NCBI GenBank assembly: GCA_027491455.1
Contig: JAOZFL010000110.1
Coordinates: 1-40,339, forward strand
DNA length: 40,339 nucleotides
Source: Thermoproteota archaeon
GTDB lineage: Archaea > Korarchaeota > JAOZGF01 > JAOZFZ01
Direction of reading: 5' to 3'
Shown: positions 648-38,922 of the stretch, piece after piece
How positions within the stretch are numbered: the stretch's first letter is position 1
Layout of the letters: every line of letters begins with the position of its first letter
Translations under genes and position numbers: made by a program
Notes under the pieces: model-generated
What the model saw: the letters and a program-made list of their open reading frames with translations, nothing else
Database searches by the model: none
What the model was told of the DNA's origin: nothing

Positions 648-785
648 GGGGCCGTAGTCGAGTATGGTAAGATGCCTGCCTGGGGCTAAACCCTATAGTT
701 AACGGAACGCAGAAGGTATAGCGCCTGCGGAAGTGATCGTGGGTTCAAAAGCAATGTAAATCTGCTGGGAGTCCCACCGGCCCCA
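648..785 (+). tRNA. tRNA-Pro(GGG) with three introns (686-707, 713-732, 750-771)
   Basis: Acceptor GGGGCCG/CGGCCCC, D-arm GTCG..AGAT, anticodon stem CCTGC/GCAGG with loop CTGGGGC, T-stem GTGGG/CCCAC. 138 nt reduces to a 74-nt mature tRNA after removing 22+20+22 nt. Confidence 0.88.
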
Positions 786-3729: not shown

Positions 3730-5931
3730 TTAAAGGGTATCCATATACTCTTCAGCCCTTGGAATCTCAGGTTTCTTTCCTTTTCTTTTCCTTATATTAA
3801 TGGCTATTTCATTTGAAAGCTTTTCAGGAACTATTTCCCAATGTGAAAAAGTGTTTTGCCAAAAAGCTTTTCCACTTGAAGCCTTTCTCATTATGCTTGC
3901 AAATCCTATTGTTTCAGCTACTGGAATATATCCGTAAACAATTGACAAGTGCTGCCTCTCCTCCATTCTCTCAATCCTTCCCCTTTTACTGGTTATCACC
4001 CCGATGACTTTGCCTAACGTGTCTGTGGGCACTGTTACTTGTATTTTATATATTGGCTCCATTAAAATTGGCTCCGCTGAAAGCACAGACCCGTAAACTG
4101 CTCTCCTTATTGCTGGCATGACCTGAGCAGGCCCTCTATGAACAGGGTCCTCATGGATCTGAACATCGGTTAGCGCTATTTTAACCCCTCTCAAAGGCTC
4201 ACCGCAAAGCGGACCTTCCTTTGTCGACCATCTGAAGGCACTGATTATCATTTCTCTTACTTCATCTAAGTACTGAACACCTGAAGTTCTGTTAACGAAT
4301 ATATTCATGTAATCGTCTATGACCCATATGTTCCTTGCATCTGAAGCATTCCATCTGGCCTCTTCTCTGAGAATCCTTGCTCTCTCTCTCCAAGGCATAT
4401 CACTTGTCACTTTCCCATCTTCAAGAAGCTTCATCGTTTCATCATTTAAGGGCTCAGCTACAAGCCAAAATCTATTATGTTTATTGGGTGACTTTGCTAG
4501 TACAGGTTGAGAGGAGGAACCTCTAACTGTTTCCCTGTAAACTACAACAGGTGGTGAAGTGACTATTTCTATTCCCGTCTCTCTTATATTGTTTATAACT
4601 ATTTCGATGTGAAGTTCACCCATCCCTGAAATCAATGTTTCCCCTGTTTCCTCGTTAATCGTGTAGACCAGGTTAGGGTCCTCGATTGATGTTTTCCTAA
4701 TGTACTCTATAAGCTTAGGTAAGTCTTGAGGTCTCTTCGGCTCAATAGCCATGGTTACAACAGGCTCTGTTACATATTTTATCTTTTCAAATGGGGGGAA
4801 ATTAATGTATTCAGGAGTAACTATTGTTTCACCTGCCCTGGCCGAGGGTAAACCCAGTAGAGCCACAATATTGCCCGCGGGGAGTTCTTTGATAATTTCT
4901 CTGTCAGCCCCCATGTAAAGTGAAACTTGTTGGATTCTATGCATACTTCTAGCCATTAACAAGAAAACTTCGTCTCCCTCATGTATCGTACCGGAAAGTA
5001 TTCTTCCAGTTGTGACGGCCCCTGCATGAGGATCTATGTTAATTTTGTTTACAGAGATAACCAGAGGGCCATTTTCATCACATTTAACCATGGATTTTCC
5101 GATTTCACTATTTAAATCCCCTTTCCACAGGGCAGGAATCCTGTATTTCTGGGCTTCAAGGGGGCTTGGTGTGTTCTTGATGACCATGCCAAGAATTGCT
5201 TCGTGAAGAGGAATTTCTCTTTGCAACTCCTCGACTCTGTTTTCCAAGTATGCATCAATGACATCAGAAAACATAAACCCTCTTTTCTTAGCCATTTCAA
5301 ACGTTAGACCCCATTTGTCAATGGCTGAACCAAAAGCTACATTTCCTTTAGCAAAGCTAACTTGCCATTTATCCCTGTATTCAGGCTCAGCGTATATATT
5401 TATTAAGCGATTGTAATCTCTAATTATCCTTTCAAGTTTCTTTTGAATACCGGGGGGCTTTAACCTCAGCTCTGTGATCAACCTGTCAACCTTGTTTATG
5501 AAAAGAACAGGTTTAACCCTCATCTCAAGGGCTTGCCTAGTGACGGTTTCTGTTTGAACCATTACTTCCTCTACAGCGTCTACTACACATATAGCTCCGT
5601 CTATGACCCTTAAAGCTCTTGTAACATGGCCAGTGAAATCTACATGACCAGGAGTGTCAACCAAGTTAATAACATATCTATCACCCCCAAACCTGTGCAG
5701 AAGAGAAATGTTGGCACTTTTGATAGTGATGCCCCTTTTCTGTTCAACCTCTAAATAATCAAGTTTTCTTGCTTGACCTGCCGTCTTCGGTGAAAGAATA
5801 CCTGCTGCAGCTAGGAGACTATCTGACATCGTCGTCTTACCATGGTCAATATGGGCTATAATCCCTACATTCCTTATCCTTTCCTTTTGATGCATAAGGC
5901 TTATCAGTGACTCCATCTCTATTTTCGGCAT
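3730..5931 (-). CDS. fusA: Translation elongation factor aEF-2
   Basis: NVGIIAHIDHGKTTMSDSLLAAAG, DTPGHVDFTGHV, FINKVDRL; 733 aa. Confidence 0.98.
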   Translation of the reverse strand: MPKIEMESLISLMHQKERIRNVGIIAHIDHGKTTMSDSLLAAAGILSPKTAGQARKLDYLEVEQKRGITIKSANISLLHRFGGDRYVINLVDTPGHVDFTGHVTRALRVIDGAICVVDAVEEVMVQTETVTRQALEMRVKPVLFINKVDRLITELRLKPPGIQKKLERIIRDYNRLINIYAEPEYRDKWQVSFAKGNVAFGSAIDKWGLTFEMAKKRGFMFSDVIDAYLENRVEELQREIPLHEAILGMVIKNTPSPLEAQKYRIPALWKGDLNSEIGKSMVKCDENGPLVISVNKINIDPHAGAVTTGRILSGTIHEGDEVFLLMARSMHRIQQVSLYMGADREIIKELPAGNIVALLGLPSARAGETIVTPEYINFPPFEKIKYVTEPVVTMAIEPKRPQDLPKLIEYIRKTSIEDPNLVYTINEETGETLISGMGELHIEIVINNIRETGIEIVTSPPVVVYRETVRGSSSQPVLAKSPNKHNRFWLVAEPLNDETMKLLEDGKVTSDMPWRERARILREEARWNASDARNIWVIDDYMNIFVNRTSGVQYLDEVREMIISAFRWSTKEGPLCGEPLRGVKIALTDVQIHEDPVHRGPAQVMPAIRRAVYGSVLSAEPILMEPIYKIQVTVPTDTLGKVIGVITSKRGRIERMEERQHLSIVYGYIPVAETIGFASIMRKASSGKAFWQNTFSHWEIVPEKLSNEIAINIRKRKGKKPEIPRAEEYMDTL

Positions 5932-10661: not shown

Positions 10662-10778
10662 GGGCCGGTGGTCTAGAGACCAGTGATAAAGGCTGAAGGT
10701 ATGACGCCACCTTCACGTTAACTGGAAAAGGTGGAGGTCGTGGGTTCGAAAGAAAAACAGAAAGTCCCACCCGGCCCA
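10662..10778 (+). tRNA. tRNA-Val(CAC) with 11-nt anticodon-loop intron (10718-10728), 14-nt T-loop intron (10751-10764) and a D-loop insertion/intron of about 17-18 nt within 10675-10701
   Basis: GGGCCGG/CCGGCCC acceptor; CCACC TTCACG|..|A GGTGG; AGGTC; GTGGG TTCGAA|..|T CCCAC. D-loop intron boundaries not resolved. Confidence 0.86.
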
Positions 10779-15193: not shown

Positions 15194-15312
15194 TGGGCCC
15201 GGCGGGACTTCCAGATACTCCTTTGAACCCGCGATCTCCGGCTTTCCACCCAACCGCAGGCCGACGCGTTCTCCGTCTGCAAATATGCATATCCGGGCTG
15301 CGCCACGGGCCC
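15194..15312 (-). tRNA. tRNA-Arg(GCG) with three predicted introns: D-loop (~15271-15291), anticodon loop (15244-15253, 10 nt), T-loop (15208-15221, 14 nt)
   Basis: Minus strand: GGGCCCG/CGGGCCC; TCGGC CTGCGG|TTGGGTGGAA|A GCCGG; AGATC; GCGGG TTCAAA|GGAGTATCTGGAAG|T CCCGC. 119 nt reduces to ~74-75 nt. Confidence 0.87.
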
Positions 15313-22914: not shown

Positions 22915-23037
22915 TGGGCCCGGCGGGACTTCCAGATACTCCTTTGAACCCGCGACACCCGGGTTGCTCCTGTTAAGGCTTAAGAGCCCGGTGCTCTACC
23001 TAACAGTCCCCAGCAACTCTTGCTGAGCTACGGGCCC
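22915..23037 (-). tRNA. tRNA-Lys(CUU) with three predicted introns: D-loop (~23000-23018), anticodon loop 37/38 (22965-22980), T-loop 59/60 (22929-22942)
   Basis: GGGCCCG/CGGGCCC; GCTC AGCAAG|..|GTA GAGC; CCGGG CTCTTA|..|A CCCGG; GTGTC; GCGGG TTCAAA|..|T CCCGC. 123 nt minus 19+16+14 = 74 nt. Confidence 0.9.
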
Positions 23038-24109: not shown

Positions 24110-24306
24110 TCACATGAAAATGGATTTTTCTCTTTCCAAGTTTTTAAGTTCAGATGTTTACGGTAACTTGGAACTCGGTACTACAATATCTAAAGAAGTA
24201 AAAAGGCGCATGTTTCCTGTATTATATCGCTTAGCATATCGTCCAAATTTAAATCTAGAACACTAAAGTATAATTATACAAAATTATATCCAGGGGCTGG
24301 TCATGG

Positions 24307-25326
24307 ATGGGGTGTGTAGCTAGTAACCTTTTAGAGTTGATAGGTGATACTCCTATTGTAAGACTCTCGAGAATAGACAGAGATTACCCCTTTGAACTAT
24401 GGGGGAAATGCGAGTTTTTAAACCCAACTGGAAGCGTAAAAGACCGAATGGCATATTACATGATTAAAGAAGCTGAGAAGCAAGGGAGATTAAAGCCTGG
24501 CATGACCTTAGTTATAGCAACTACGGGGAATACCGGCATATCTTTCTCGGCAATAGGTTCCTATCTCGGTTACAAAGTGTTGATCGTAATGCCTGAAGAG
24601 ATGAGCTATGAAAGAAAACTACTGGACATTCTTTTTGGAGCTGAACTCATACACACACCTGGCGGCGAAAGCGATGCAGCAAAAGCTTTGGAGTATTCAA
24701 AGGAACTTGAATGTAGAAATCCAAGGAAATACATTTCCTTGGATCAATGGGATGATGAATCAAATGTTAAAGCACATTACGAAACCACAGGAAAAGAAAT
24801 CGTTGAGCAACTGGGTGCGGAGAACATAAAAGCTTTTGTGGCAGGTGTTGGTTCGGGTGGGACATTGGCTGGCATTGCTAAAAGGCTGAAGGAAGTGAAT
24901 TCAAAGGTGATAGTTGTTGGTGTTGAGCCTGCAGAGTGTCCAGTGGCGGAGAAATGGTTCAAAACAGGTGAACTAGGACCATGGGGTAGACATGAGGTTG
25001 AAGGGATAGGAGACGGGTTTGTACCCAGCATTATAAAGAGGTACAGAGGGTATATTGACGACTGGGTCACGGTAAGCAGTGAAGAATCAGTCGAGATGGC
25101 TAGGGAAATAGCAAGGAAAGAGGGACTGCCTGTAGGGATATCTTCAGGAGCTAATGTTGCGGCGGCTACAAAGGCTGGGGTGAAATATAGATTAAGGGAA
25201 GGGGAAAGAATTGTTACTATACTTCCGGATTATGCAGCAAGGTACTTTAGTACGAGACTGTTCCTTAGGAGAAGATTGACGATAGAAGAGCATGAAAAAA
25301 TGCTTGAATTATCAAAAACAGATTGA
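24307..25326 (+). CDS. cysK: Cysteine synthase (CysK/CysM, PLP-dependent)
   Basis: LLELIGDTPIVRLSRI..NPTGSVKDRMAYYMI..LVIATTGNTGISFSAIGSYLGYKVLIVMPEEMS..VGSGGTLAGIAKRLKE. Confidence 0.95.
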   Translation: MGCVASNLLELIGDTPIVRLSRIDRDYPFELWGKCEFLNPTGSVKDRMAYYMIKEAEKQGRLKPGMTLVIATTGNTGISFSAIGSYLGYKVLIVMPEEMSYERKLLDILFGAELIHTPGGESDAAKALEYSKELECRNPRKYISLDQWDDESNVKAHYETTGKEIVEQLGAENIKAFVAGVGSGGTLAGIAKRLKEVNSKVIVVGVEPAECPVAEKWFKTGELGPWGRHEVEGIGDGFVPSIIKRYRGYIDDWVTVSSEESVEMAREIARKEGLPVGISSGANVAAATKAGVKYRLREGERIVTILPDYAARYFSTRLFLRRRLTIEEHEKMLELSKTD

Positions 25327-25460
25327 ACTCTCTAAAAAAGGGTTGTAAGTTGCACATGAGCAACCATGGATGAGTCATCTCTTTGTTATCTTTAAAGGTT
25401 CGTTTTCAACTTGAATAATTGGTTTTCCTTATATTCATTAAAAAGGTATCGTGTTCACTC

Positions 25461-26849
25461 TTAGAGAGAGTTCTCCTTTATTTTTCTAACTATTCCCTCA
25501 GCAGCGATTATACCTGTAGCTGCTGCTATAACTATCCCTCTTGATAGGCCAACCCCATCCCCAGCCACAAAAAGGTTTTCGGCTGTCTCTAATTCTTTAT
25601 TTGTCAGGATTCGATGGGCTGAGAACTTTACTTCTGGGGCATATAGAAGAGTCGAATTGCTCTTTATTCCCGGTATTACCCTGTTAAGTGCCTCCAGCGC
25701 CTCTTTAATGTCTGTAAGTATCCTGTGTGGGAGTACAAGGGCCAAGTCTCCCGGTGTTACATCTGTGAGAGTAGGTTTTATCATGGCTTCCTTTATTCTT
25801 TTCCAAGTGGATCTTCTTCCTCTTTCTAAATCCCCTAGTTTCTGCACTATGGGTTTTCCACCGCCAAGTATATTGGTTTGTTTAGCTATTTGCCTTCCAA
25901 ACTCTGTTGTGTTTTCAACAGGCTCAGTTAGCTTTATCCTTATCAAGAGAGCGAAATTTGTGTTTTCAGACCTCTTTGAGTACATTGCATGGCCATTAAC
26001 AAGTATAAGGTCTTCATAAACTTCTTTAACAACAAATCCTCTTTCATTCACGCAAAAAGTTCTCGCAAAGTCATCATAGGTTTTTGTGTAGACATGGAAT
26101 TTCGGGTCAAGGCTTACCTTTGTCACAGAGTCCATAACAATGGCTGGGACCTCTACTCTTATGCCTATATCGATTGGGGTGTAAACCTTCTTGATTCCAA
26201 GTTTTTCCGCTTGTTCAGCAAACCATTTGGCACCATATCTCCCAGGAGCGACGAGTAAAAACTTGGTTTTTATTTCCCCTTTATTCGTTTTAAGCAGGTA
26301 TCCCCCTTCTGTTTTCGATATTTGCTTGACTTTTGTCCTTAAAAGAAATTTGACTCCCTTTTCCTTTAGGTGTTTATAGAAGCGGTTTATTACTTCAACT
26401 GAGTTATCACTTCCTATAAACCTTTGCTTTATTTGTATAAATTTTACGCCTGCTGAGGCTGCTTTTTTCTCTAGTTCTCGTATTTCATCGTTTAAACCGT
26501 AAATTTTCCTTGGAGCACCAAACTCCAGGAAGATTTCATCAACTTTGTTAATCAACTCCCAGGCTTTTTTCTCGGATCCAGTTATCCCCCCTAAATCTCC
26601 TCCTATATCCGGCCTCAGATTTAACCTGCCAGCCGATATAAGACCTGCCCCCCCAACTCCAGTTAAAATTTTACAGGGATTACAGAGGGCGCAGATGCTT
26701 GTCAACTCCAAAGGACATTTTCTTTTTCGAGGTTCTTCTCCATAATCTATTATTGTTACATCTTCTATTTTTTCTTCAGCTAGTTTATATGCTGCACAAA
26801 GCCCTGCAGGCCCTGAACCGATAATTGTAACTTTGTTCATCTTGTGCAC
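25461..26849 (-). CDS. FAD-dependent dehydrogenase/oxidoreductase
   Basis: VTIIGSGPAGLCAAYKLAEEKIEDVTIIDYGEEPRKRKCPLE...CALCNPCKILTGVGGAG...LFVAGDGVGLSRGIVIAAATG. Confidence 0.92.
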   Translation of the reverse strand: MHKMNKVTIIGSGPAGLCAAYKLAEEKIEDVTIIDYGEEPRKRKCPLELTSICALCNPCKILTGVGGAGLISAGRLNLRPDIGGDLGGITGSEKKAWELINKVDEIFLEFGAPRKIYGLNDEIRELEKKAASAGVKFIQIKQRFIGSDNSVEVINRFYKHLKEKGVKFLLRTKVKQISKTEGGYLLKTNKGEIKTKFLLVAPGRYGAKWFAEQAEKLGIKKVYTPIDIGIRVEVPAIVMDSVTKVSLDPKFHVYTKTYDDFARTFCVNERGFVVKEVYEDLILVNGHAMYSKRSENTNFALLIRIKLTEPVENTTEFGRQIAKQTNILGGGKPIVQKLGDLERGRRSTWKRIKEAMIKPTLTDVTPGDLALVLPHRILTDIKEALEALNRVIPGIKSNSTLLYAPEVKFSAHRILTNKELETAENLFVAGDGVGLSRGIVIAAATGIIAAEGIVRKIKENSL

Positions 26850-27503
26850 CGGCCTCTATTTATTTCATTTTCGCCCGTAAAATTTTTTGTGGCTCGAATT
26901 TTATAAAGTTTTCCATAAGAAAACCCCTGTTTTCAACTGGTGGATGAATTGCAGTTTCCGCCAGTGTTTCTTTACTATAAGGTTTGAAAGATGTTTTCTT
27001 TGCAGGACGAGAGATAGCTAGATGAATGAAGCCTGATAGAGGACTCGTAGAATCTATACCAGCAGGGAAAAATCAAAAGGTAAAGGTAACTTTAAATGTA
27101 CTGAAAGAGGTGTCTCTGAGGTCTACATAAGGAATACATATACAAGTCCGAGAACGCTGGAAGCATAATTTTAGATGTCCTTCTAAGTGAACTAAACCTC
27201 CCAAGGAGCCCAAACCTGAAGACTTCAAGTTAGAGTTAACCGAGATCCTTTTGTTAGCCGTGTTCTAGTGATAACCCTCCTAACAATCTTAGTGGCAAAG
27301 AAACACCTATAAATAAAAGAACCCCTCCGTTTCTCTTTTTTAAGAATAGTTTTCCACTAAAACTTTTTTTGTATCACTACTTACCCTGTTCTCTTTAAAA
27401 TAGAGAAGATTTAAAACATGTCCTATAATCTTATCTAGTCTCAGACAATAGATGTATCATCTAATTGTTTCCCTGTTTTTTTACATAGAAGGTCGTTTTC
27501 GGT

Positions 27504-27941
27504 TTGAATCACCTTGGTGGTCTTTTGCTTACTAAAGGGGAGGGAATTAGCATTAAAGGGTTGAAAGCAAGACTTCACAGAGAGAAGAGGCTAACCCCAG
27601 AGTTAAGGGAAAAATTCCGAAAAGTTTATGGGTTAAGGTTTGAAAGAGCTATTAAAGCGGTTGCTCAGCATAATGTTTATAAATATGTTTTCAGGCCTAG
27701 TGGAAGGGTTTTATGGATTGTTGTAGGTAGACAGAAGGATTATTTGATTTACCCTGACATGTATTGTTCATGCTCGGATTTCTATTTGAACAGTGTTGTT
27801 AGGAAAAAGGTTGATGCATGTTATCATATTCTAGCTAGGATCCTGGCTGAGTTTCTCGGTTTTTACGATGTTTTATACGCCAGCGATGACGAGTACGTTT
27901 CTTTGTTTAATGAGTTAGGTGAAGTTTTAAAGGCAGATTGA
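27504..27941 (+). CDS. SWIM zinc-finger protein
   Basis: DYLIYPDMYCSCSDFYLNSVVRKKVDACYHILARILAEF (CxC..CxH). Confidence 0.85.
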   Translation: MNHLGGLLLTKGEGISIKGLKARLHREKRLTPELREKFRKVYGLRFERAIKAVAQHNVYKYVFRPSGRVLWIVVGRQKDYLIYPDMYCSCSDFYLNSVVRKKVDACYHILARILAEFLGFYDVLYASDDEYVSLFNELGEVLKAD

Positions 27942-28076
27942 AATTGAGGGTTCACCTGTTTAAATCCTGTAAAGCCTAAAATGACTAGAAGAGCGTTTTC
28001 AATAGAGCCGAGAATAAATGTTAAGGGAGCTTCTCTTAGCTAAAGGAAAAAGTTGTAGAGATGAGGAGCTTCTGGT

Positions 28077-29675
28077 GTGATTGAAATGCCTCATATAAAC
28101 TCTTTAGATGAAGAAATGAAGCAACTCATGGAATTAATCAAGGAGAAAACAGGTTTAACGGAGAAGGAGATATGGAAAAAAATAGGGGAGGATAGGATTC
28201 TTTCGGGGCCGCTGCTCTCCAGAAAAGGAGCATTAATTTTGCTTGCATCTGAACTTGGAGTTAAAGTCAGAAGAGGAAAAACGTACAGGGTTCCCTTCCT
28301 TAACATTAAGGATTTAGTCGCGGGTATGCAGAGAGTTAGGTTAGTCGGAAGGATCAAGAAAATCTATCCGGTCATATGGTTTGAAAGGAAGAATGGAAAC
28401 AGGGGAAAGGTGCAAAGGCTAAAGGTAATTGATAAAACAGGAGAAGTGATCTTCGTCCTATGGGGTGACTCTATTAAGGGAGTTGAAAGGGCAAAAATAG
28501 GTGATGCGATTAGAATTGATGGGGGAAGAGTTAAAGAAGATCAAAAAGGAAAATTAGAGATTCATCTGGATCCATCAGTTAAAATAGAGCTAAATCCTCC
28601 AGAGCTAGATAAAAAAAGGCTTCCATCGGTTAGAGAGAAGCTCCTAGGGCCCAGTGAAATAGGAATAGAAACTGAGGAAATAAATCTTATGGGTGTCATA
28701 ACCTACAAATCAAAGATAAGGAGCTTCAGGAGAGGGGGAGAAAAAGGCGAAATGGGTTTCTTGGAATTAGCTGACAGCCATGGTAGCAAGAGAGTTGTTT
28801 TTTGGGAGCATTTAGATACTTTTAGAAAAGCAGATGTAGGCGATTTTATAAAGATATATAATTGTAAAGTTGTTAAAAGGCCTAGTGGAGGACTGGAAGT
28901 CCATGTTGCAAAATCTTCCTTCCCAATTATTAATCCTCAGGACATTTTTTCGTCTATAAGAGGACATAGTATTTTTAAAGTTAAGGATCTGAGAGAAGGA
29001 ATCAGTAGAGCGAATTTAATTGTGAGGGTTTTATGTAAACCAAGAGAAGATAAGGTGAGGATGAATAAACCTTTGTTATGTTATGATGCAACGGGTTGCA
29101 TTTCCATAGGGGCTTCATCAGCATTTACAGGTTTAATGTTCTTTAATAGTGATGAGTGTTTAACTCTTTCAAACGTTGCTGTTAAATTCGTTAATGGAAA
29201 GGGAAGAATTGTGCTAGATGAAAAAGCAGTCGTTAATGTTTCTGAGAGGCTAAACAGGTTTTTTCCACGGCTGAAAGTTCTTCATCCAAGGGTTTCCATT
29301 GAGAATATGGAAAGATGCTTGGAAGCAGAAAGATGTGAAGTTAGAGGTACAATTGTTGGATTGAAACCCTCAGCTATAAATAAAAATCTTTACGTAAATC
29401 TCTTAGTTGATGACGGAACAGGGCAGCTGGCAGTTAACGTTAAAAAAGATGAATTGCAAGGTCTTCTAGATACACTGGGTTTAAACATGGATGTAGGAAG
29501 TGGGTTAGTTTCTCTGTCAGAGAAACTGATAGGTAGAGAGCTTGTTTTCTATGGAAAAACCAGGTTTGACAGGTTCAGAGGATTCTATGAATTTCTAAAC
29601 CAAAGAGTAGTAGAAGCTGATCCATTAATGGAGGCCTTGCTCATTTTAATGGATGAAATCTGGTTCTCTATTTAA
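28077..29675 (+). CDS. Multi-OB-fold replication protein A-like ssDNA-binding protein
   Basis: VRLVGRIKKIYPVIWFERKNGNRGKVQRLKVIDKTGEVIFVLWGDSI..; further OB-like segments NLMGVITYK and CEVRGTIVGLKPSAINKNLYVNLLVDDGTGQLAV. Confidence 0.85.
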   Translation: MIEMPHINSLDEEMKQLMELIKEKTGLTEKEIWKKIGEDRILSGPLLSRKGALILLASELGVKVRRGKTYRVPFLNIKDLVAGMQRVRLVGRIKKIYPVIWFERKNGNRGKVQRLKVIDKTGEVIFVLWGDSIKGVERAKIGDAIRIDGGRVKEDQKGKLEIHLDPSVKIELNPPELDKKRLPSVREKLLGPSEIGIETEEINLMGVITYKSKIRSFRRGGEKGEMGFLELADSHGSKRVVFWEHLDTFRKADVGDFIKIYNCKVVKRPSGGLEVHVAKSSFPIINPQDIFSSIRGHSIFKVKDLREGISRANLIVRVLCKPREDKVRMNKPLLCYDATGCISIGASSAFTGLMFFNSDECLTLSNVAVKFVNGKGRIVLDEKAVVNVSERLNRFFPRLKVLHPRVSIENMERCLEAERCEVRGTIVGLKPSAINKNLYVNLLVDDGTGQLAVNVKKDELQGLLDTLGLNMDVGSGLVSLSEKLIGRELVFYGKTRFDRFRGFYEFLNQRVVEADPLMEALLILMDEIWFSI

Positions 29676-30585
29676 TTTTTAGGTCTTCAAAGGCTGAAAT
29701 TGCTGAAACTGCGCCTTGAGCAGCTGCTGTGATGATTTGTCCAGGTCCCCCTGTAACGTCGCCAGCTGCGTATACCCTTAACATGTTTGTTCTCTGATGT
29801 TTATCTGTCAATATATAACCTTTCTGGTCTGTTTTTACCCCTAGCTTTTTAGCTAAATCACTTTGAGGAGCCAAACCAGCGTATATGAATACTCCATCTA
29901 CATCTAAAGATGAGGCTTTCCCAGTTTTTCTATCTCTATATATCAATCCCTGAACTTTGTTCCTCCCAAAAATCTCTGTGATCTCCGAGTTTAAAATATA
30001 TTCTATGCCGCTTTCCTTTATTTTAGACTGATAAGCTGTTTCGCACATCATAGTAGGCATCAGCTCTATTACCGTAACCTTTTCACATATTCCACTTAAA
30101 TATAAGGCTGCCACTGCACCTGAGTTTCCCCCTCCAATAACAGCTACTCTTTTCCCTTTAAAGAAAAAACCATCACACGTTGCACAATAAGATACGCCTC
30201 TGCCTAGAAATTCTTCTTCCCCTTTAACCCCTAATCGTCTATGAGTTGTCCCAGTTGCAAAGACAAGGCCTCTGCAAACATATTCCTTATTATTCGTTAA
30301 AACCTTGTATAGAAGTCCTATTCTTCCTAGATTCTTTACCTCCTCTAGCTCCTTTACTTCTACATATAACAAGGCATGTTCTTTCATTTTCTGTGCTAAA
30401 TCTTTCCCCTTTATCTGTTTAAAGCCTGGATAATTCTCTATGAGAGGAGCATCCAGCAATAGACCACCTGTTATGCCTTTCTCAAGGATTATTGTTTTTA
30501 GCCCTAGTCTCGATGAATATACTCCGGCTGTTAAGCCGGCGGGTCCACCGCCAATGATAACTAAATCATATATTGTTTCCTCCAT
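29668..30585 (-). CDS. trxB: Thioredoxin reductase
   Basis: YDLVIIGGGPAGLTAGVYSSRLGLKTIILEKG, GVSYCATCDGFFFKGKRVAVIGGGNSG, VYAAGDVTGGPGQI. Confidence 0.96.
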   Translation of the reverse strand: MEETIYDLVIIGGGPAGLTAGVYSSRLGLKTIILEKGITGGLLLDAPLIENYPGFKQIKGKDLAQKMKEHALLYVEVKELEEVKNLGRIGLLYKVLTNNKEYVCRGLVFATGTTHRRLGVKGEEEFLGRGVSYCATCDGFFFKGKRVAVIGGGNSGAVAALYLSGICEKVTVIELMPTMMCETAYQSKIKESGIEYILNSEITEIFGRNKVQGLIYRDRKTGKASSLDVDGVFIYAGLAPQSDLAKKLGVKTDQKGYILTDKHQRTNMLRVYAAGDVTGGPGQIITAAAQGAVSAISAFEDLKIK

Positions 30586-30710
30586 GTTTTTCTCCTCCTT
30601 CCCTAAGACATTAAAACGTTACTTTTTTAAGTGTTAAACAAGTACACTAAGGTTTTATAAATGTCCAAATTTTCCTTTTAAGCAGCTAAGCTGTTTTAGA
30701 GGCGGTTGGG

Positions 30711-30974
30711 TTGGGTAGAAAAAAGAAGAGGAGGGTAATTAAAAGAGTTAAACCCAGGCTTCCATCACTTTTCCTTTGCCCTGCCTGCGGCGTCCAGAGT
30801 GTGATGGTTGTTTTAAAGAGAAAGGAAAGAGAAGCTTTAATTAAATGCGGAAGCTGTGGCTTAGATGAATTCGTTAAAATAAGTGAGGAAGCCGAGCCAG
30901 TGGATGCATATGCTAAGTTCATAGATAAATACTCAGGGTCTAAGAGTGCTTCCCCCGAGAAATCTTTATCTTGA
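30711..30974 (+). CDS. Elf1-like zinc-binding transcription elongation factor
   Basis: GRKKKRRVIKRVKPRLPSLFLCPACGVQSVMVVLKRKEREALIKCGSCGLDEFV; TTG start. Confidence 0.85.
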   Translation: MGRKKKRRVIKRVKPRLPSLFLCPACGVQSVMVVLKRKEREALIKCGSCGLDEFVKISEEAEPVDAYAKFIDKYSGSKSASPEKSLS

Positions 30975-31677
30975 AGTTTGAAATTAATTGTTTTATAATT
31001 ATGTTAAAAATGAAACTTAAAGTGTCTTTCATAGGTTTTATCTTTGATTTTTCGCCTCCATAAATAGCCGGTATACTTATTTCCATTATATTCATTTTCT
31101 CTCTTGCCGCTTTAATCAGGATCTCGCTTTCAGCCACATATCCATTGCATTGAAAAGTTATTTTCCTGAACACACCAGATTTAAATGCTCTATATCCAGA
31201 CTGTGAATCTGTTGTCTTAACCCCGAAAAAGTTCCTCAAGATGAAAGTCGTAGTTTTGTTAGACAAGACCCTGAGGAAAGGCATTTTTTCACTCCTTTCC
31301 TTATCCAAGAATCTTGATCCAAGAACTATGTCAACGTTTTCGTTAAGAACTTTAGAGATGAACATAGGTATAAGAGAGGGGTTATGCTGTCCATCGCCAT
31401 CCATTGTTATTATCACATCTGGGCTTCTTTTTAAGGCTTCTTTTATCCCTGATCTTAAAGCAGCTCCTTTTCCCATGTTTCTAATATGTTTAATGACCGT
31501 TGCTCCCGCCTCCTTTGCCTGAGTGTATGTTTCATCTTTGGATCCATCATCAATAACTATTACTTCATCCACATATTTTTTGGCACTTAAAACCAGGTGC
31601 TTGATAGTTTTTTCTTCGTTATAAGCAGGGACAATGCATATGGTTCTCATATCTCTTTCACTATAGTTCAGTGTCAA
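30940..31677 (-). CDS. Family 2 glycosyltransferase (dolichyl-phosphate mannose/glucose synthase-like)
   Basis: TICIVPAYNEEKTIKHLVLSAKKYVDEVIVIDDGSKDETYTQAKEAGATVIKHIRNMGKGAALRSGI...DGDGQHNP. Confidence 0.95.
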   Translation of the reverse strand: MTLNYSERDMRTICIVPAYNEEKTIKHLVLSAKKYVDEVIVIDDGSKDETYTQAKEAGATVIKHIRNMGKGAALRSGIKEALKRSPDVIITMDGDGQHNPSLIPMFISKVLNENVDIVLGSRFLDKERSEKMPFLRVLSNKTTTFILRNFFGVKTTDSQSGYRAFKSGVFRKITFQCNGYVAESEILIKAAREKMNIMEISIPAIYGGEKSKIKPMKDTLSFIFNIIIKQLISNFKIKISRGKHS

Positions 31678-31725
31678 TTAACCTTTAGGGAATAATAAAT
31701 TTATTAATCATCATGTTATCATTTC

Positions 31726-34700
31726 ATGTGTGAGGTTAAAATGGCTGGTGAGAAATATTACTCTGTTCTGCTCCTTGAAATCAACAAGTTAATAAAGGTA
31801 GCCTCAGAAGCTAGAGCAAAAGGCTTCGATCCAGAAGAAAAAATAGAGATGATAAGGGCTGAGAAAACATCGGAAAGGGTTGAAGAAGTAACTCAGATTA
31901 AAGGGATAGGTGAAAGAATAGATTTCTTGTTTGAAGAGGGGAAAGATAAGATTGAAGTTGCCTTTTTAATAGGCAAAGAACTTGTAATGGGTGAATTCGG
32001 CGAGTACGGTGTTGAAACAGCTACTGAACTTGCCTTAAAAACAGGTTTAGCAATCATGACTGATTGCGTTACATCATCTCCACTAGAAGGCATTTCAAAT
32101 GTTAAAGTGAAGAACAACTACGATGGGACCAAGTATTTAGCGATTTATTACCTTGGCCCTATAAGAACAGCGGGTGGAACTGAAGCCGGCCTATCAGTTG
32201 TCCTAGCAGATTATCTAAGGCAGCTTTTACACTTAGACAGATATAAGCCGACCCAGGAAGAGATATACAGGTACGTTGAAGAATCTTCGGTTTACAAAAG
32301 AGCTAAAGGACGGCTTCAGTATAGTGTTTCACAAGAAGAACTGGAGAAACTTATTAGTTACCTTCCAGTTGAAGTCACAGGTCCCCCGGTGGAGGAAAAA
32401 TTGGAAGTAACCTTTTACAGGGACCTAGAAAGAGTTGAAACGAACGGTATAAGAGGAGGGGCTCTGATAGTTCTAAATGAGGGGATATTGTTAAAGGCAA
32501 GAAAGTTACTTGGGATAATCAGCGATTTAAAACCCAAGTTCTTCTTAAAAGGATGGGATTGGCTTGAAGAATTCATTAAAAAGGAAACTAACTCGTTGCA
32601 GACAGATGAATTCGAGCCTAGATACCTAGAGAAATTACCTGGTGGCAGACCAGTTTTCGCTCTTCCAAACAGGGTGGGAGGATTCAGATTAAGGTATGGA
32701 AGGGCCAGAAACACGGGTTTCGCAAGCGTTGGACTGAATCCGGCCACGATGTATCTACTTGAGGGATTTATAGCTACTGGGACACAAATAAAAACCGAGA
32801 AACCTGGAAAAGCAGCTATAGTTACCCCTGTCTCCTCGATTGAAGGTCCAGTTGTCCTACTCAACAATGGGTCAGTTAAACAAGTAAATACGCTTCAAGA
32901 GGCAAAACTTATAAAGGGAGAGGTTCGTAGGATCCTTTCCCTTGGCGACATTTTAATATCAGTAGGTGATTTCCTAGAGAATAAACACCCTTTTTTACCA
33001 TCTGGCTTATGTGAGGAATGGTGGGTTCAAGAACTGGAGAAGTCATTAAAGTTCAGAGAAACCAAAGATTTATCTATAAGTGAAAAGAGGATAAAATCAT
33101 TCACTGATAAACCTTTAGAATGTTTTCCCACACCAGAAGAGGCATGGGAACTGTCTAACAAGTTGGAAATACCTCTACATCCAAGATATCTTTTTAACTG
33201 GGAAAACGTAACCCTTAATGAGGTTTCAAGACTCATTAGTTACTATAAAGGATCCGGCGTTATGGAAAGTGGTAAGTTAAAATTGAAGAAGAACCTTGAC
33301 CTAATAAATATTCTGCAGAAGCTAAGGACACCCTACTCAGAAAATGAAGAGCAAATTTTAATTGAAGATAAATACTCATTCATTCTTTCCTTGATCCTTG
33401 ACGAAATGTTTAAAAAGGCAAAACAACTCAAGGAAATAATCAAGAAGAAAGAAGACACCCTTATTTTTCTTTCAAGTACTCTCGGTTTCCCCTTTTACGC
33501 CAAGGCCTCTACTTACATAGGGGCAAGAATGGGTAGACCGGAGAAATCAAGAGAGAGAAAGCTGAAACCTCCCATTCACATATTGTTTCCATTGGAAAGA
33601 TATGGCGACAGATATAGAAGCTTAAATAAAGCCTATAGACACGGTGTTTGTAGGTTAGAGCTCCATACACGTAAATGCCCTACATGTGGGTTAATTACTC
33701 CTTACTTGAGGTGTGATGCATGCGGCTCTAAGACATATCCCTTATACTGGTGTCCAAAATGCGGTGAACAGTTGAGTACAGAGCTCTGTGAAAGGTGCAG
33801 GGTTAAAGCGGTAACCGTTAAAAAAATTAGCGTGAACTTAAGCGAATTGGTAGATTTAGCCTTAAATAAAATAGGGATACAGTCCTTGGATTTAATAGGA
33901 CAAATTAAAGGTGTCAAAGGCTTAATGAACGAAGAAAAAACACCTGAACACCTTATTAAGGGGATATTGAGGACAAAACACGGGGTTTATGTCAATAAAG
34001 ATGGAACATCTCGTTTCGATGCCGTTAACGCTCCTTTAACACATTTTAAACCCAGAGAAATAGGTCTAACACTTGAGAAAGCCCGTGAACTAGGATACAA
34101 ACTTGACTGCAAAGGTAAGCCATTAGAAAACGATGAACAAGTGTGTGAAATCTTTTATCAAGACCTTATCTTATCCAAGGAGGCAGCAAAATATCTTTTA
34201 AAGGTTTCAAGATACATCGATGAACTACTAGAAAAACTGTATGGGCTTGAACCCTACTATAAAGCGAAAAATGAACAAGATTTAATAGGACATGTAGTTT
34301 TCGGCATATCTCCCCATACCTTTGTAGCCGTAGCTGGTAGAATAATAGGTTTCACAGATGCTAATGTTCAATATGCTCACCCAGTTTTCCACGCAGCGAA
34401 AAGAAGAAACTGTGATGGAGATGAAGACTCAATTATACTTGGTTTAGATGCTCTAATTAATTTCTCCAGGAAATATGTGCCAAGTAAAGTAGGGGGTATG
34501 GAAGATATCCCTCTTCTCTTCATAACCAAGATTAATCTGGCAAACGTCGACGATGAAGTTTACAACATGGAAATAACCAGTAAGTTACCTCTTAACTTTT
34601 ACTATGAATGCCTCAAGGGCAAAATTTCAAAGGAAACTCTAGGCAAAGTGGAAAGGGTGTCAGACTTGGTTAATGGAGAAAGGAAATCTATATTGTATAC

Positions 34701-35160
34701 CCATGAAACAAGGTCTATTGGCGATGCACCGGCTGTTTCGAGCTATAAGAAATATAAAACAATGTTTGACAAAGTTGTAGCTCAGATGAGACTTGCAGAA
34801 AAAATAGAAGCAGTTTCACCAGATTTAGTGGCTTCGCTTGTGATAGAAAATCATTTCATCCCTGATATAGTAGGAAACCTGAGGAATTTCACCTATCAGG
34901 GCTTCAGATGTGTGAAATGCAACAGCAAGTATAGAAGGCCTCCCTTACAGGGTAGATGCATCTGTGGAGGAGAATTAATACCTAACGTTCCAAAGGGGGG
35001 TGTGGTTAAATATGTTGCAATAGTCCAGTATTTAACATCACACTACAAAGTTCCGAGATATCTTAAGCAGAGATTTAAATTGCTGCTAAAAGAATTAGAC
35101 ATGCTCTTCCAGGGCGAAGAAGTCCAAGTTTCACAGATGGATCTCAGTAAATTTCTGTGA
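31726..35160 (+). CDS. polC: DNA polymerase II (PolD) large subunit DP2, no intein
   Basis: 1144 aa; IRTAGGTEAGLSVVLADYLR, HPVFHAAKRRNCDGDEDSIILGLDALINFSRKYVPSKVGGMEDIPL, C-terminal zinc motifs. Confidence 0.98.
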   Translation: MCEVKMAGEKYYSVLLLEINKLIKVASEARAKGFDPEEKIEMIRAEKTSERVEEVTQIKGIGERIDFLFEEGKDKIEVAFLIGKELVMGEFGEYGVETATELALKTGLAIMTDCVTSSPLEGISNVKVKNNYDGTKYLAIYYLGPIRTAGGTEAGLSVVLADYLRQLLHLDRYKPTQEEIYRYVEESSVYKRAKGRLQYSVSQEELEKLISYLPVEVTGPPVEEKLEVTFYRDLERVETNGIRGGALIVLNEGILLKARKLLGIISDLKPKFFLKGWDWLEEFIKKETNSLQTDEFEPRYLEKLPGGRPVFALPNRVGGFRLRYGRARNTGFASVGLNPATMYLLEGFIATGTQIKTEKPGKAAIVTPVSSIEGPVVLLNNGSVKQVNTLQEAKLIKGEVRRILSLGDILISVGDFLENKHPFLPSGLCEEWWVQELEKSLKFRETKDLSISEKRIKSFTDKPLECFPTPEEAWELSNKLEIPLHPRYLFNWENVTLNEVSRLISYYKGSGVMESGKLKLKKNLDLINILQKLRTPYSENEEQILIEDKYSFILSLILDEMFKKAKQLKEIIKKKEDTLIFLSSTLGFPFYAKASTYIGARMGRPEKSRERKLKPPIHILFPLERYGDRYRSLNKAYRHGVCRLELHTRKCPTCGLITPYLRCDACGSKTYPLYWCPKCGEQLSTELCERCRVKAVTVKKISVNLSELVDLALNKIGIQSLDLIGQIKGVKGLMNEEKTPEHLIKGILRTKHGVYVNKDGTSRFDAVNAPLTHFKPREIGLTLEKARELGYKLDCKGKPLENDEQVCEIFYQDLILSKEAAKYLLKVSRYIDELLEKLYGLEPYYKAKNEQDLIGHVVFGISPHTFVAVAGRIIGFTDANVQYAHPVFHAAKRRNCDGDEDSIILGLDALINFSRKYVPSKVGGMEDIPLLFITKINLANVDDEVYNMEITSKLPLNFYYECLKGKISKETLGKVERVSDLVNGERKSILYTHETRSIGDAPAVSSYKKYKTMFDKVVAQMRLAEKIEAVSPDLVASLVIENHFIPDIVGNLRNFTYQGFRCVKCNSKYRRPPLQGRCICGGELIPNVPKGGVVKYVAIVQYLTSHYKVPRYLKQRFKLLLKELDMLFQGEEVQVSQMDLSKFL

Positions 35161-35211
35161 GTATTTTTAAAATATTTCATCAGGGTTCATAAAGAAGAGG
35201 TATAAGAACAA

Positions 35212-35400
35212 TCAGATTATCCTTAAAATTATCTCTGCTAGAATAACGATTATTGATAAAGCAACGACATAGAGGGGTTTAACCTTTATTCCTTCCTTTT
35301 CTTCTTGGTAGAAGCTCATTAAACCAGCTGTTGTTGCAGGCATATAAGTTTTTTCTCTTTTCTTCTTTGACACGAAACCACCTTCTATTTTTTCGTGCAT
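35212..35400 (-). CDS. secG: Preprotein translocase Sec61-beta (archaeal SecG)
   Basis: MPATTAGLMSFYQEEKEGIKVKPLYVVALSIIVILAEIILRII. Confidence 0.93.
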   Translation of the reverse strand: MHEKIEGGFVSKKKREKTYMPATTAGLMSFYQEEKEGIKVKPLYVVALSIIVILAEIILRII

Positions 35401-35442
35401 ATACTTGAATTAGCTAAATAATTAACATTAATTGTAACACTT

Positions 35443-35988
35443 TTATTTTTTACCTAATTCAGATCTAAGTATTTGACTCAACCCGCTGGGGTCCTTTATT
35501 ATAAGTGTCAATTTCGTCTCTCCATTTCTAATCATCTTTAACTCTTTAATTACTTCGCTTACATTTCTCCTAGAGCTGTAAAGGATTTCAGCCTTCCTTA
35601 AGATTTCTTCTATCCTGCACAAGAGGCCTTCAACGTTTGTGATGTACCATTCAGCAGCTGGGCCAGGGTTGATTTCGACTCCAAGCTCAGGAATCAAGAT
35701 AGATGCATAGGGGGACCTTAGAATTTTCACATACATGTCTCTTGTACCCTCAACTTTAAAGACTATTTCCTTGGATTTTTTCCTGATCTCAAAGGGGATG
35801 ACACTGTTAGATTTGTAACCACATTTTTCACAGTAAATGGAGACTATCAATAACTTACCAGCCACAGGTACATTATACACTACCTCGGAAAAAATGAGAG
35901 TTTTTCCAGTGCAAACTGGACAAGTTAATTTTTTAAATTCATTTCTTTCTGCGACGTACTCGTCTACTGGTTTTTCATCGGTTAGCAA
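35443..35988 (-). CDS. ZPR1-type zinc-finger protein
   Basis: CPVCTGKTLIFSEVVYNVPVAGKLLIVSIYCEKCGYKSNSVIPFE...VEGLLCRIEEIL. Confidence 0.9.
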   Translation of the reverse strand: MLTDEKPVDEYVAERNEFKKLTCPVCTGKTLIFSEVVYNVPVAGKLLIVSIYCEKCGYKSNSVIPFEIRKKSKEIVFKVEGTRDMYVKILRSPYASILIPELGVEINPGPAAEWYITNVEGLLCRIEEILRKAEILYSSRRNVSEVIKELKMIRNGETKLTLIIKDPSGLSQILRSELGKK

Positions 35989-36108
35989 GAATACCCCCCT
36001 GTTAACACAAAAAAATAAAACTTTTTAAAAAATGATACCTCTTAAGTTTTAAAGTGTACAGCATTTTAAACGAACTCAAAGATACGTACAAGACGGTGAA
36101 AATTAAAC

Positions 36109-36330
36109 ATGGGAAGAATAAAACCTAGGAACATAAAAACCCTTGGGAAAAAACTGATAGCAAGGTATGGCCCCCTGTTTACATTGGAATATGAACACAA
36201 CAAAAGGATACTTGAAAAAATAGCGGTTTTCCCCGGGAAAAACTTCAGGAACAAATTGTCAGGTTACATAACAAGGCTTAAGAAAAGAGAAGCCAAGGGC
36301 CAAATAGTAATAGCGTCTTCAGAGACCTGA
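36109..36330 (+). CDS. rps17e: Ribosomal protein S17e
   Basis: MGRIKPRNIKTLGKKLIARYGPLFTLEYEHNKRILEKIAVFPGKNFRNKLSGYITRLKKREAKG. Confidence 0.93.
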   Translation: MGRIKPRNIKTLGKKLIARYGPLFTLEYEHNKRILEKIAVFPGKNFRNKLSGYITRLKKREAKGQIVIASSET

Positions 36331-36349
36331 AAAACCGGCTAAATGAAAA

Positions 36350-36461
36350 CAGGCCGGGCGGGACTTCCAGATACTCCTTTGAACCCGCGGCCTTGGGCTT
36401 CCTTCCCTAATAATTCTTCGATCCGAAGACCCACGCTCTTGTCCAACTAAGCTACCGGCCC
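36350..36461 (-). tRNA. tRNA-Arg(UCG) with two introns: anticodon loop 37/38 (36400-36422) and T-loop 59/60 (36364-36377)
   Basis: GGGCCGG/CCGGCCT(G); GCTT..GAGC; TGGGT CTTCGG|..|A GCCCA; AGGCC; GCGGG TTCAAA|..|T CCCGC. 112 nt minus 23+14 = 75 nt. Confidence 0.9.
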
Positions 36462-36536
36462 AATTGAATAAAGGTCTTCATTATCTATATAAAGTTATAA
36501 GGAATAGTTGTTTTTGGATAGGCTGAGAACAATGTT

Positions 36537-37163
36537 TTGGAAGTGGGGCCTGTGGACTCAGAAAATTATGGCAAAGGTTTTTTCATAGCCATTGAGGGGA
36601 TAGATGGAGCTGGTTGTACAACAATTTCTAGGTTTCTTGCTAACCAACTAAGAAGGAAGGGATATAACATCATTTTGACGAAGGAACCCACTAAAAACAA
36701 AATAGGGAGACTGATTAGGTTCTTCTTAAAGGAAAAAAACTATAGGCCTGAAATAGATGCATTGCTCTTCGCTGCAGATCGTCTTTGTCATATAGATGAA
36801 GTCATAGGGCCAAGTTTAAGAAAAGGTTTAATAGTTATATCTGATAGATACTTAGAATCAAGTATAGCTTATCAAACTGCTCAAGGGGTAAATCAGGAAT
36901 GGATACAAGAACTAAATAAATTTGCAATTAAACCGAACCTTACAATAGTCCTGGACGCTGATCCTGAGGTGACAAGTAAAAGGAAGAAAGGGTTTGGAGG
37001 AGAGAAATTTGAAGACGTGAGGTTTCTAAGGAAGGTTAAAAGAAAGTTCATAGAGAGAGCAATGCAAGGAAACTACATAATTATAGACGCCAATTCTCCA
37101 TTGAAGGATGTTCAAAGAGAGACATTAAACATAGTTCTTTCTTTCCTCTCCTATAACTTTTAA
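36537..37163 (+). CDS. tmk: Thymidylate kinase
   Basis: FFIAIEGIDGAGCTTISRFLANQLRRKGYNIILTKEPTKN...LIVISDRYLESSIAYQ; TTG start. Confidence 0.94.
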   Translation: MEVGPVDSENYGKGFFIAIEGIDGAGCTTISRFLANQLRRKGYNIILTKEPTKNKIGRLIRFFLKEKNYRPEIDALLFAADRLCHIDEVIGPSLRKGLIVISDRYLESSIAYQTAQGVNQEWIQELNKFAIKPNLTIVLDADPEVTSKRKKGFGGEKFEDVRFLRKVKRKFIERAMQGNYIIIDANSPLKDVQRETLNIVLSFLSYNF

Positions 37164-37176
37164 TAATTCATTTCTC

Positions 37177-37578
37177 TCATCTATATCTAATCTTTTTCCT
37201 GTACCGGGTCGGTTGTTCAAACCTTCTCCTTGAGAGGTTGTTTTCAATATTTACTTCCGTTACTTCTTGATCTGTTTTCTCTATTTTTCCGTATCTCCCT
37301 ATGTTTAATCTAAGTTCACCTTTGAATGTTGAAGTATAGCTGTTAGTTATCAAGTAAGTTTCTCCCTCATCAACTATGTTTATAGCGTCATCCCAGAGTG
37401 TCAGTGTCACAGTGCCTGTTTCATCTCCAACAGTGGCTTCTGACAACATATGTGTTTCACCCGTGGTTCTTGAGATAACTTCCCTGGGCTCTGTTTTCTC
37501 TACTACTTTCGCTACGAGGTTTATACGCCTCATACCAGGGCGCAGCATACTAACCTTTATATTTTCGCTCTCGCTCAA
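37177..37578 (-). CDS. Single-OB-fold ssDNA-binding protein
   Basis: MLRPGMRRINLVAKVVEKTEPREV...LSEATVGDETGTVTLTLWDDAINIVDEGETYLITNSYTSTFKGELRLNIGRYGKI. Confidence 0.88.
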   Translation of the reverse strand: MSESENIKVSMLRPGMRRINLVAKVVEKTEPREVISRTTGETHMLSEATVGDETGTVTLTLWDDAINIVDEGETYLITNSYTSTFKGELRLNIGRYGKIEKTDQEVTEVNIENNLSRRRFEQPTRYRKKIRYR

Positions 37579-37725
37579 GACTTAAAACGCTCCTAAATTG
37601 AATAGTTATACCTTTCCAATTACTTTCCTTAAACTTAAAAAATTTTTCCTTTTTCCCCTTCGACATCTCTAACCTTGCTATTCCTCTCGGAGGTAAATAT
37701 TTCTCTTAAACACTCTTCTAATTTT

Positions 37726-37764
37726 CACATTGCGAAAGCACCTTAAGAATTTCGCAATTATGTG
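37726..37764. repeat. Hairpin-forming inverted repeat CACAT-TGCGAAA ... TTTCGCA-(ATT)-ATGTG
   Basis: Arms read directly; 7-bp perfect inner stem with 12-nt loop plus 5-bp outer stem across a 3-nt bulge. Confidence 0.8.
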
Positions 37765-37818
37765 CGCTTAACGTTCTACTCTTTATAACTTTCAGCGAAG
37801 AAGAGAGTTTAAGGTTTG

Positions 37819-38922
37819 TTAATTTTTTGAGTGTTTCGACTTTATTAAGCACTCTAATGAACTCTGAATTAAACATGGCGTTTTATAGGAAAAAACGATA
37901 TATACTTCCCTCCCCCTCCGAATTTCACCGCTGTACACCTTCTGAGGGTTTTCGAAGGAAACTATGTTACCGATTTTTGACTTAACAATTACTTCAAAAA
38001 AGTTTTCTGCACACGAAACTTCAATTACTTTACCATCAAAGAAATTCTTTCCTTTAACATCTTTGACTACTTCTTTAACCTCTATTTCTTCAGGCGGTAA
38101 ACCAATAGTTACCCTTTGTCCTTCTTTTATATCCTTAATTTCAGGTGGGTCTACTCTGATCCTCACCCCCCTACAGTTAACTATTAGGAAGCCATCCCTT
38201 ATCTTCTCTGTTACGCATGTAAAGATATTCCTTAAACCAACTATTTTTGCTACCTCTATATTTCCAGGTTTTTTCTTGATAAGGTCGGCTTTTCCTTCCC
38301 AGATGATTTCCCCATTATGTATGACGGCTATCCTATCTGATAGATAAATGGCTTCCTCGTAGTTTTTAGTTGCGATGACCACCGGAACATTTAACCAGGA
38401 AAAAAGAAGTCTTAATCTCGGCAAGTAATCCTTCTTCAGGTAGGTAGGGAAACCCTTAAAGGGTTCATCCAATAGCAAAGCAGAAGGCCTAGAAATAAAA
38501 GCTCTTGCTAGGGCAAGCCTTAACTTATCGTCTAAATTTAGTTCTCTTACCCTTGCACTTAATAGATCCTTCAGGTTAAATATTTCAACAGCTCTTAGAA
38601 ACTCCTCTTTAACCTTCTCCTCTCTTTTTGACAGAAACTTTAAGGTAAGAAATAGGTTCTCTTCAACTGTCAAGTCACGTAAAAGACCATAACCCTCAGG
38701 TATGTAGATTATCCTTCTCTGTGAGATGGGGACAGATTCTGCATCCTTATAATCAATTAAAATATTCCCCTCTGTGGGCTTTAAAAGTCCTGCCATGATT
38801 CTTAGAAGAGTTGACTTACCAGTTTTCTCTTTTCCAAGCAAGGCTAAGACTTCATTGTTTAGGGAAAGATCAACCCTGGACAGTGTTTTCTTATATTTAA
38901 TGCTCATCAATTGTATCTTCAA
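37819..38922 (-). CDS. ABC transporter ATP-binding protein, degenerate motifs, C-terminal TOBE-like region
   Basis: Walker A LLGKEKTGKSTLLR, Walker B ALLLDEPF; signature replaced by LNLDD. Confidence 0.85.
   Translation of the reverse strand: MKIQLMSIKYKKTLSRVDLSLNNEVLALLGKEKTGKSTLLRIMAGLLKPTEGNILIDYKDAESVPISQRRIIYIPEGYGLLRDLTVEENLFLTLKFLSKREEKVKEEFLRAVEIFNLKDLLSARVRELNLDDKLRLALARAFISRPSALLLDEPFKGFPTYLKKDYLPRLRLLFSWLNVPVVIATKNYEEAIYLSDRIAVIHNGEIIWEGKADLIKKKPGNIEVAKIVGLRNIFTCVTEKIRDGFLIVNCRGVRIRVDPPEIKDIKEGQRVTIGLPPEEIEVKEVVKDVKGKNFFDGKVIEVSCAENFFEVIVKSKIGNIVSFENPQKVYSGEIRRGREVYIVFSYKTPCLIQSSLECLIKSKHSKN

Follow-up and report, generated by a model that had tools for sequence, protein, structure and literature searches.

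The tRNA-Arg(UCG) gene of an archaeal contig, whose T-loop is interrupted at position 59/60, raises the question of what such an insertion is, how many tRNAs of the same genome share it, which enzyme would remove it and by what route it has been gained. The window, that is, the whole stretch of 40,339 nucleotides analysed here (contig JAOZFL010000110.1, assembly GCA_027491455.1), contains five tRNA genes, all with an insertion at this site. Taken together, the evidence makes it very probable that these are genuine introns with a bulge-helix-bulge (BHB) splice motif at 59/60, spliced by a fused endonuclease (EndA), and that they have spread between tRNA genes in a deep sister lineage of the Korarchaeaceae.

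T-loop insertions in the window and their boundaries

None of the five window tRNAs is detected by ARAGORN or by the Rfam tRNA model (at the gathering threshold and at E <= 10), which is the outcome that T-loop insertions would cause, and for this reason a custom stem-based finder was written for the window. All five T-loops proved to be enlarged, with 21-29 nt between perfect T-stems. In tRNA-Arg(UCG) the loop has 21 nt as opposed to the usual 7 and reads TTCAAA-GGAGTATCTGGAAG-T within a GCGGG/CCCGC T-stem. When the 14 nt (22 in tRNA-Pro) that follow TTCRAA are taken out, TTCRAAT is restored in the window tRNAs. The intron GGAGTATCTGGAAG is identical in the Arg-UCG, Arg-GCG and Lys-CUU genes (Table 1). 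The pre-tRNAs also hold introns that had not been described in the initial annotation, namely at 37/38 in all five and in the D-loop in three, together with an extra insertion in Pro-GGG. The failure of both standard tools carries a practical warning, as completeness and codon-decoding inferences based on tRNAs may err in such genomes. A gene for a TruD-type tRNA pseudouridine synthase lies at 12340-13551 (-), between tRNA-Val and tRNA-Arg(GCG).

Table 1. Features of the window, in window coordinates
Feature	Position	Strand	Remarks
tRNA-Pro(GGG) gene	648..785	+	37/38 and 59/60 introns, plus an extra anticodon-arm/variable-region insertion (placed visually, by comparison with G001 Pro-GGG)
59/60 T-loop intron AGCAATGTAAATCTGCTGGGAG of tRNA-Pro(GGG), 22 nt	750..771	+	
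Elongation factor 2 (EF-2) gene	3730..5931	-	Used for lineage placement
tRNA-Val(CAC) gene	10662..10778	+	Three introns: D-loop, 37/38, 59/60
59/60 T-loop intron AGAAAAACAGAAAG of tRNA-Val(CAC)	10751..10764	+	Syntenic G001:C9:150502 is an empty site
tRNA-Arg(GCG) gene	15194..15312	-	Three introns: D-loop, 37/38, 59/60
59/60 T-loop intron GGAGTATCTGGAAG of tRNA-Arg(GCG)	15208..15221	-	Syntenic G001:C9:146368 is an empty site
tRNA-Lys(CUU) gene	22915..23037	-	Three introns: D-loop, 37/38, 59/60
59/60 T-loop intron GGAGTATCTGGAAG of tRNA-Lys(CUU)	22929..22942	-	Syntenic G001:C9:139285 is an empty site
DNA polymerase D large subunit (DP2)	31726..35160	+	Argues against a crenarchaeal contaminant
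tRNA-Arg(UCG) gene	36350..36461	-	112 nt before splicing, spanning positions 1-73; introns at 59/60 and 37/38
59/60 T-loop intron GGAGTATCTGGAAG of tRNA-Arg(UCG), 14 nt	36364..36377	-	Between A59 and T60
37/38 anticodon-loop intron of tRNA-Arg(UCG), 23 nt	36400..36422	-	Structural parse

The genome of isolate INS_M20_B145 (G001), a member of the same family whose EF-2 is 80% identical, shows gene-by-gene synteny with the window; window positions 812-21706 have their counterpart at G001:C9:159999-140140, and those of 23666-38922 mostly at 203-231 kb. The syntenic Lys(CUU), Arg(GCG) and Val(CAC) genes of G001 have 7-nt T-loops and constitute exact empty sites, in which 14 nt are absent at 59/60; these 14 nt are the sole difference in length between their T-arms and those of the window orthologues. 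The syntenic Arg-UCG of G001 is itself occupied at 59/60, by another intron sequence. The position of GGAGTATCTGGAAG does not allow a one-base shift. Taken over the two genomes, 17 of the 29 introns could be shifted by one base on sequence alone, and for these the geometry of the BHB motif fixes the position at 59/60. This site is listed among the noncanonical intron positions of archaeal tRNAs (PMC4090602). As read from the sequence, the insertions are archaeal BHB tRNA introns at T-loop position 59/60, and the initial claim that all five window tRNAs have one agrees with both the T-stem parse and the empty sites in the syntenic Lys, Arg-GCG and Val genes.

Lineage and intron load of the genome

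In an EF-2 tree, the window groups with G001 and with a genome of the same order (G002) as sister to the Korarchaeaceae (family f3), with support of 99/98, and the kinship table assigns that family to the same phylum as the window's genome. The lineage is, by this placement, a deep sister of the Korarchaeaceae within the phylum Korarchaeota. The presence of PolD had earlier been taken to point outside the Crenarchaeota, a reading borne out by both the DP2 gene and the tree; a crenarchaeal contaminant is made unlikely by these and by the gene-by-gene synteny with G001. Family f3 is represented by G004, a single contig of 1,590,757 bp, which we take to be the genome of Korarchaeum cryptofilum OPF8. 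A tRNA-Ile(UAU) occurs in the window's genome, in whose tRNA inventory Ile(CAU) was not found, and the same trait has been reported for K. cryptofilum (PMC8450103).

The window's genome (G000) consists of 2.2 Mb in 223 contigs and is 94% complete, with 3.6% estimated contamination. Its tRNA inventory combines the results of pattern searches and of the Rfam model with the reading of sequence stretches. Raw pattern matches per genome were too noisy, a control with reversed patterns giving equal numbers, and the count was restricted to matches that formed part of a complete cloverleaf. Because a covariance model built on tRNAs with T-loop introns also matches ordinary tRNAs, its use was confined to listing tRNA genes. 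The inventory comprises 44 of the 46 tRNA genes of the usual archaeal set, in essentially one copy each, with Leu-UAA and Leu-GAG not found in this 94% complete genome. Since they are single genes that make up nearly the full usual set, these tRNAs must be functional. An intron at 59/60 is present in 21 of the 44 genes and absent from 23. A 59/60 intron in every tRNA, from which genome-wide colonisation had been proposed, is hence true of the window alone (the chance of five out of five at a rate of 21/44 is 0.019), and the strong form of the proposal fails on the 23 genes that lack the intron, while preferential colonisation of this one site stands. The seven Leu and Ser genes of G000 have none (p = 0.009); Ser-UGA of G001 does have one.

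When one insertion per arm is counted, G000 holds 79 introns in its 44 genes (22 in the D-arm, 36 in the anticodon arm and 21 in the T-loop); a manual count gives 81, where the 'D-arm' calls of Pro-GGG and His are read as second anticodon-arm introns. This corresponds to a density of about 1.8 per tRNA gene (about 79-81 in 44). In G001, 45 insertions occur in 45 tRNA genes, eight of them at 59/60. The published maximum that was found is that of Pyrobaculum calidifontis, with 71 introns in 46 tRNA genes, and the Thermoproteales have a mean of 0.84 per gene (PMC8450103). The intron density of G000 is thus above the highest archaeal value that we have found reported.

The splice motif and its putative endonuclease

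The initial annotation had proposed that the motif reuses the T-stem as outer helix and U54-R57 of the T-loop as the central helix (H), and this proposal is upheld by pairing far above that of shuffled introns and by covariation with residue 57. In H, T54, T55, C56 and R57 pair with the 3' part of the intron, typically YGRA or YGRG. The introns end in roughly YGRA-NN, and the 3-nt bulges are A58 A59 N and N N T60. Four base pairs form in four of the five window tRNAs (three in Val), in 17 of the 21 introns of the window's genome and in 24 of the 29 introns of the two genomes, with at least three in all 29; H is limited to three in Val, Phe, Pro-TGG and Asn. Across 20,000 trials with shuffled introns, four base pairs were reached by 0.87 introns on average and never by more than 6, against the 24/29 observed. 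Among distinct introns, a C opposite residue 57 occurs in five of nine with G57 and in none of 18 with A57 (p = 0.0016), and the residue-57 pair has changed on both sides in four of 11 aligned tRNAs with T-loop introns. In the isolated T-arm of Arg-UCG, H is absent from the minimum-energy fold, which indicates that it is marginal without protein, and the 59/60 motif probably needs an enzyme to hold H.

For this enzyme, a heterotetrameric (alpha-beta)2 endonuclease had initially been anticipated. A PF01974 search of the 94% complete genome found no separate gene for an EndA beta subunit, and instead revealed one fused alpha'2-type gene with a loop of crenarchaeal type, a single 371-aa ORF with two PF01974 repeats (G000:C209). 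An EndA of one ORF and two repeats also occurs in G001, G002, G004 and almost every other searched genome of the phylum. The C-terminal, catalytic repeat matches the catalytic subunit of Aeropyrum pernix EndA (3p1z) with E = 2.5e-35, and the specific loop aligns to it gap-free (GQPLDVEKPRGADFEGP versus GHPIGIRKPKTFDFNVP in A. pernix); the Lys-Pro (KP) of the loop is aligned in all korarchaeal EndA sequences compared. For the catalytic half, 3p1y, an A. fulgidus-like chain with the loop, scores above the wild-type 1r0v. From its sequence, 3p1y is presumably the A. fulgidus alpha'2 EndA with an inserted Crenarchaea-specific loop. The Lys of this loop is described as carrying broad specificity, which the loop confers when inserted into the A. 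fulgidus alpha'2 enzyme (Hirata 2011, via PMC6379350). The EndA described here shares the two repeats and the loop Lys and is predicted to form a homodimer. The A. fulgidus loop enzyme was made in the laboratory; in the korarchaeal genome the two features occur together naturally, and the intron diversity that would be expected is there as well.

On these grounds, the fused alpha'2-type EndA with its Crenarchaea-type loop is the putative enzyme cutting the 59/60 introns. An alpha2 EndA with the specific loop has been proposed for Korarchaeota from K. cryptofilum (Fujishima 2011, via PMC4033280), the only alpha2 archaeon known with noncanonical introns (PMC4033280). The same features, a single fused two-repeat EndA, a crenarchaeal-type loop and noncanonical introns, are found together in the window's genome, and G000 and its relatives would represent a far stronger case than K. 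cryptofilum for this association. The putative K. cryptofilum genome, G004, has the same EndA loop but few introns, and no T-loop (59/60) intron was found in it, in contrast to the very high load in the window's lineage; this indicates that the loop permits intron gain and does not drive it.

In the mechanism proposed, the fused endonuclease would cut both bulges, after A59 and before T60, and the exons would then be ligated. The T-loop, and with it the elbow and T-loop modification, would be formable only after the intron has been excised. What makes 59/60 a permissive site is that tRNAs hardly vary at T54-C56, at A58 and at the stem end formed by G53-C61. A YGRA intron with the right spacing would consequently fit every tRNA, so that one type of intron could suit all.

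Probable spread between T-loops and alternative readings

Arg-UCG, Arg-GCG and Lys-CUU share GGAGTATCTGGAAG despite differing variable regions and flanks, and in Arg-UCG the acceptor stem differs as well. Gln-CUG and Trp have 13 nt of their T-loop introns in common. Ten pairs of introns share at least 9 nt, against a mean of 3.3 and a maximum of 10 among shuffled introns, an excess that is modest beyond the identical set. By tRNA identity, six 59/60 introns (Arg-UCG, Arg-CCG, Lys-UUU, Met, Thr-UGU and Gly-UCC) are common to G000 and G001, 15 occur in G000 only and two (Gly-GCC and Ser-UGA) in G001 only. Given that Arg-UCG is occupied in G001 and that Lys-CUU and Arg-GCG are empty there, Arg-UCG is the likely donor. 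It is likely that the intron was copied from Arg-UCG to Lys-CUU and Arg-GCG, a direction that depends on one outgroup species. Copying from Arg-UCG into other T-loops would take place by DNA-level transposition or by short gene conversion.

The site is also occupied in other lineages. At least one clear 59/60 intron, in Ser-UGA, is present in G002, and at least four short ones (Thr-GGU, Met, Asn and Ala-UGC) in G017, a genome of family f4 of the same phylum with the same type of EndA. The EF-2 of G017 is in fragments, with an identity of only about 42%, and the placement of this genome is provisional. At least four T-loop introns occur in the Guaymas genome B15_G2 (Thermoprotei archaeon, G042), which belongs to a different lineage; its Glu-UUC and Glu-CUC genes, on different contigs, have an identical 30-nt T-loop intron and differing 37/38 introns. 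By these occurrences, the 59/60 site is used repeatedly. We suggest tentatively, and at somewhat less than even confidence, that 59/60 is the target of an ongoing site-specific mobility, where YGRA introns copy between T-loops, aided by a natural one-gene alpha'2 EndA with the specific loop and independently of the Thermoproteales burst.

Short gene conversion between the T-arms of neighbouring tRNAs, rather than transposition, could account for the identical introns and is a possibility to be taken seriously, though a doubtful one. No more than about 21 kb separates the three GGAGTATCTGGAAG copies, and what they share is limited to the intron and the T-stem strands on either side of it, whose GCGGG/CCCGC sequence recurs in many other tRNAs of G000. 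The flanks outside these tRNAs are unrelated, and local conversion of T-arms would leave the same trace as transposition. Nevertheless, at about 31 bp the tract would be a short one for gene conversion, and Arg-UCG departs from the others in the acceptor stem and variable region immediately adjoining it. The tRNA-Gln and tRNA-Trp genes that share 13 nt are on separate contigs and have different T-stems, and the two Glu introns of B15_G2 are likewise separated. The six tRNAs occupied in both G000 and G001 might also suggest that the family's ancestor already had the 59/60 introns, with loss in G001 in place of gain in the window's lineage. We regard this as unlikely, since it would require 15 independent exact losses in G001, the identical copies at three sites require recent spread, and no T-loop intron was found in the putative K. 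cryptofilum genome.

A selective explanation has a similar, slightly lower standing. Archaeal integrases use the 3' halves of tRNA genes as attachment sites, and T-loop introns might be kept because they disrupt these known sites of integration and so shield the genes from mobile elements; this would leave the equally many D-loop and 37/38 introns unexplained and seems improbable. That the genes are broken or chimeric, or the product of assembly or binning, is hardly credible, even for a draft of 223 contigs with 3.6% estimated contamination, in view of the 44 distinct tRNA genes at about one each, which make up nearly the whole usual set, the exact removable boundaries, the conserved BHB motif, the synteny with G001 and the 80% identity of EF-2. 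In the preferred reading, spliced introns have spread between tRNA genes, which would represent an independent, site-biased intron burst in a phylum other than that of the Thermoproteales.

Intron transposition among tRNAs has been described for the Thermoproteales (PMC4033280, PMC4090602). According to these sources, Pyrobaculum and its relatives have BHB introns of the same noncanonical kind, up to three per tRNA, and similar introns across tRNAs (Sugahara 2008; Fujishima 2010, via PMC4033280, PMC4090602); similar introns in non-orthologous tRNAs are present in G000 too. The differences lie in the host, which the EF-2 tree and DP2 place outside the Thermoproteales and in another phylum, in the enzyme, with one fused alpha'2-type EndA gene found here and none of the (alpha-beta)2 form of the Thermoproteales, and in the density of about 1.8 introns per gene, as compared with 71 in 46 genes in P. 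calidifontis (PMC8450103). In G000, 59/60 is a dominant site (21/44), in comparison with the Thermoproteales as described in these sources. As far as can be told, the new elements are a burst in the Korarchaeota whose intron density is the highest found reported, a dominant 59/60 site, a one-gene EndA, syntenic empty sites and a plausible donor. Both the co-evolution of the EndA loop with intron diversity and the transposition of archaeal tRNA introns are ideas that have rested on few lineages. For both, the korarchaeal lineage would serve as a replicate that is independent and lies in another phylum; its one-gene enzyme is simpler, has hitherto been hypothetical and has a laboratory-made counterpart. 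The presence of syntenic occupied and empty T-loop sites and of an identifiable donor makes the route of intron gain testable.

Additional aspects of the tRNA genes in these genomes were observed. Besides the 37/38 intron, an apparent second anticodon-arm intron is seen in Pro(UGG) (G000:C199:1607-1756), Arg(UCU) (G000:C174:18583-18696) and His(GUG) (G000:C199:722-826), positioned in the 5' stem or ahead of the anticodon, and Pro(UGG) may have four introns in total. In euryarchaea, the tRNA-Trp intron acts as a guide RNA; the 37/38 introns of tRNA-Trp(CCA) in G000 (C119:11299-11487, GATGA ... CTGA) and G001 (C9:222772-222899) resemble it, with motifs similar to box C/D. The tRNA genes are also regionally clustered: 44 of the 45 found in the 1.9 Mb G001 genome lie within C9:139-459 kb, and in G004 (G004:C1) all 34 of the listed tRNA matches fall at 1.005-1.589 Mb or 0-75 kb, with none in the other 58%.
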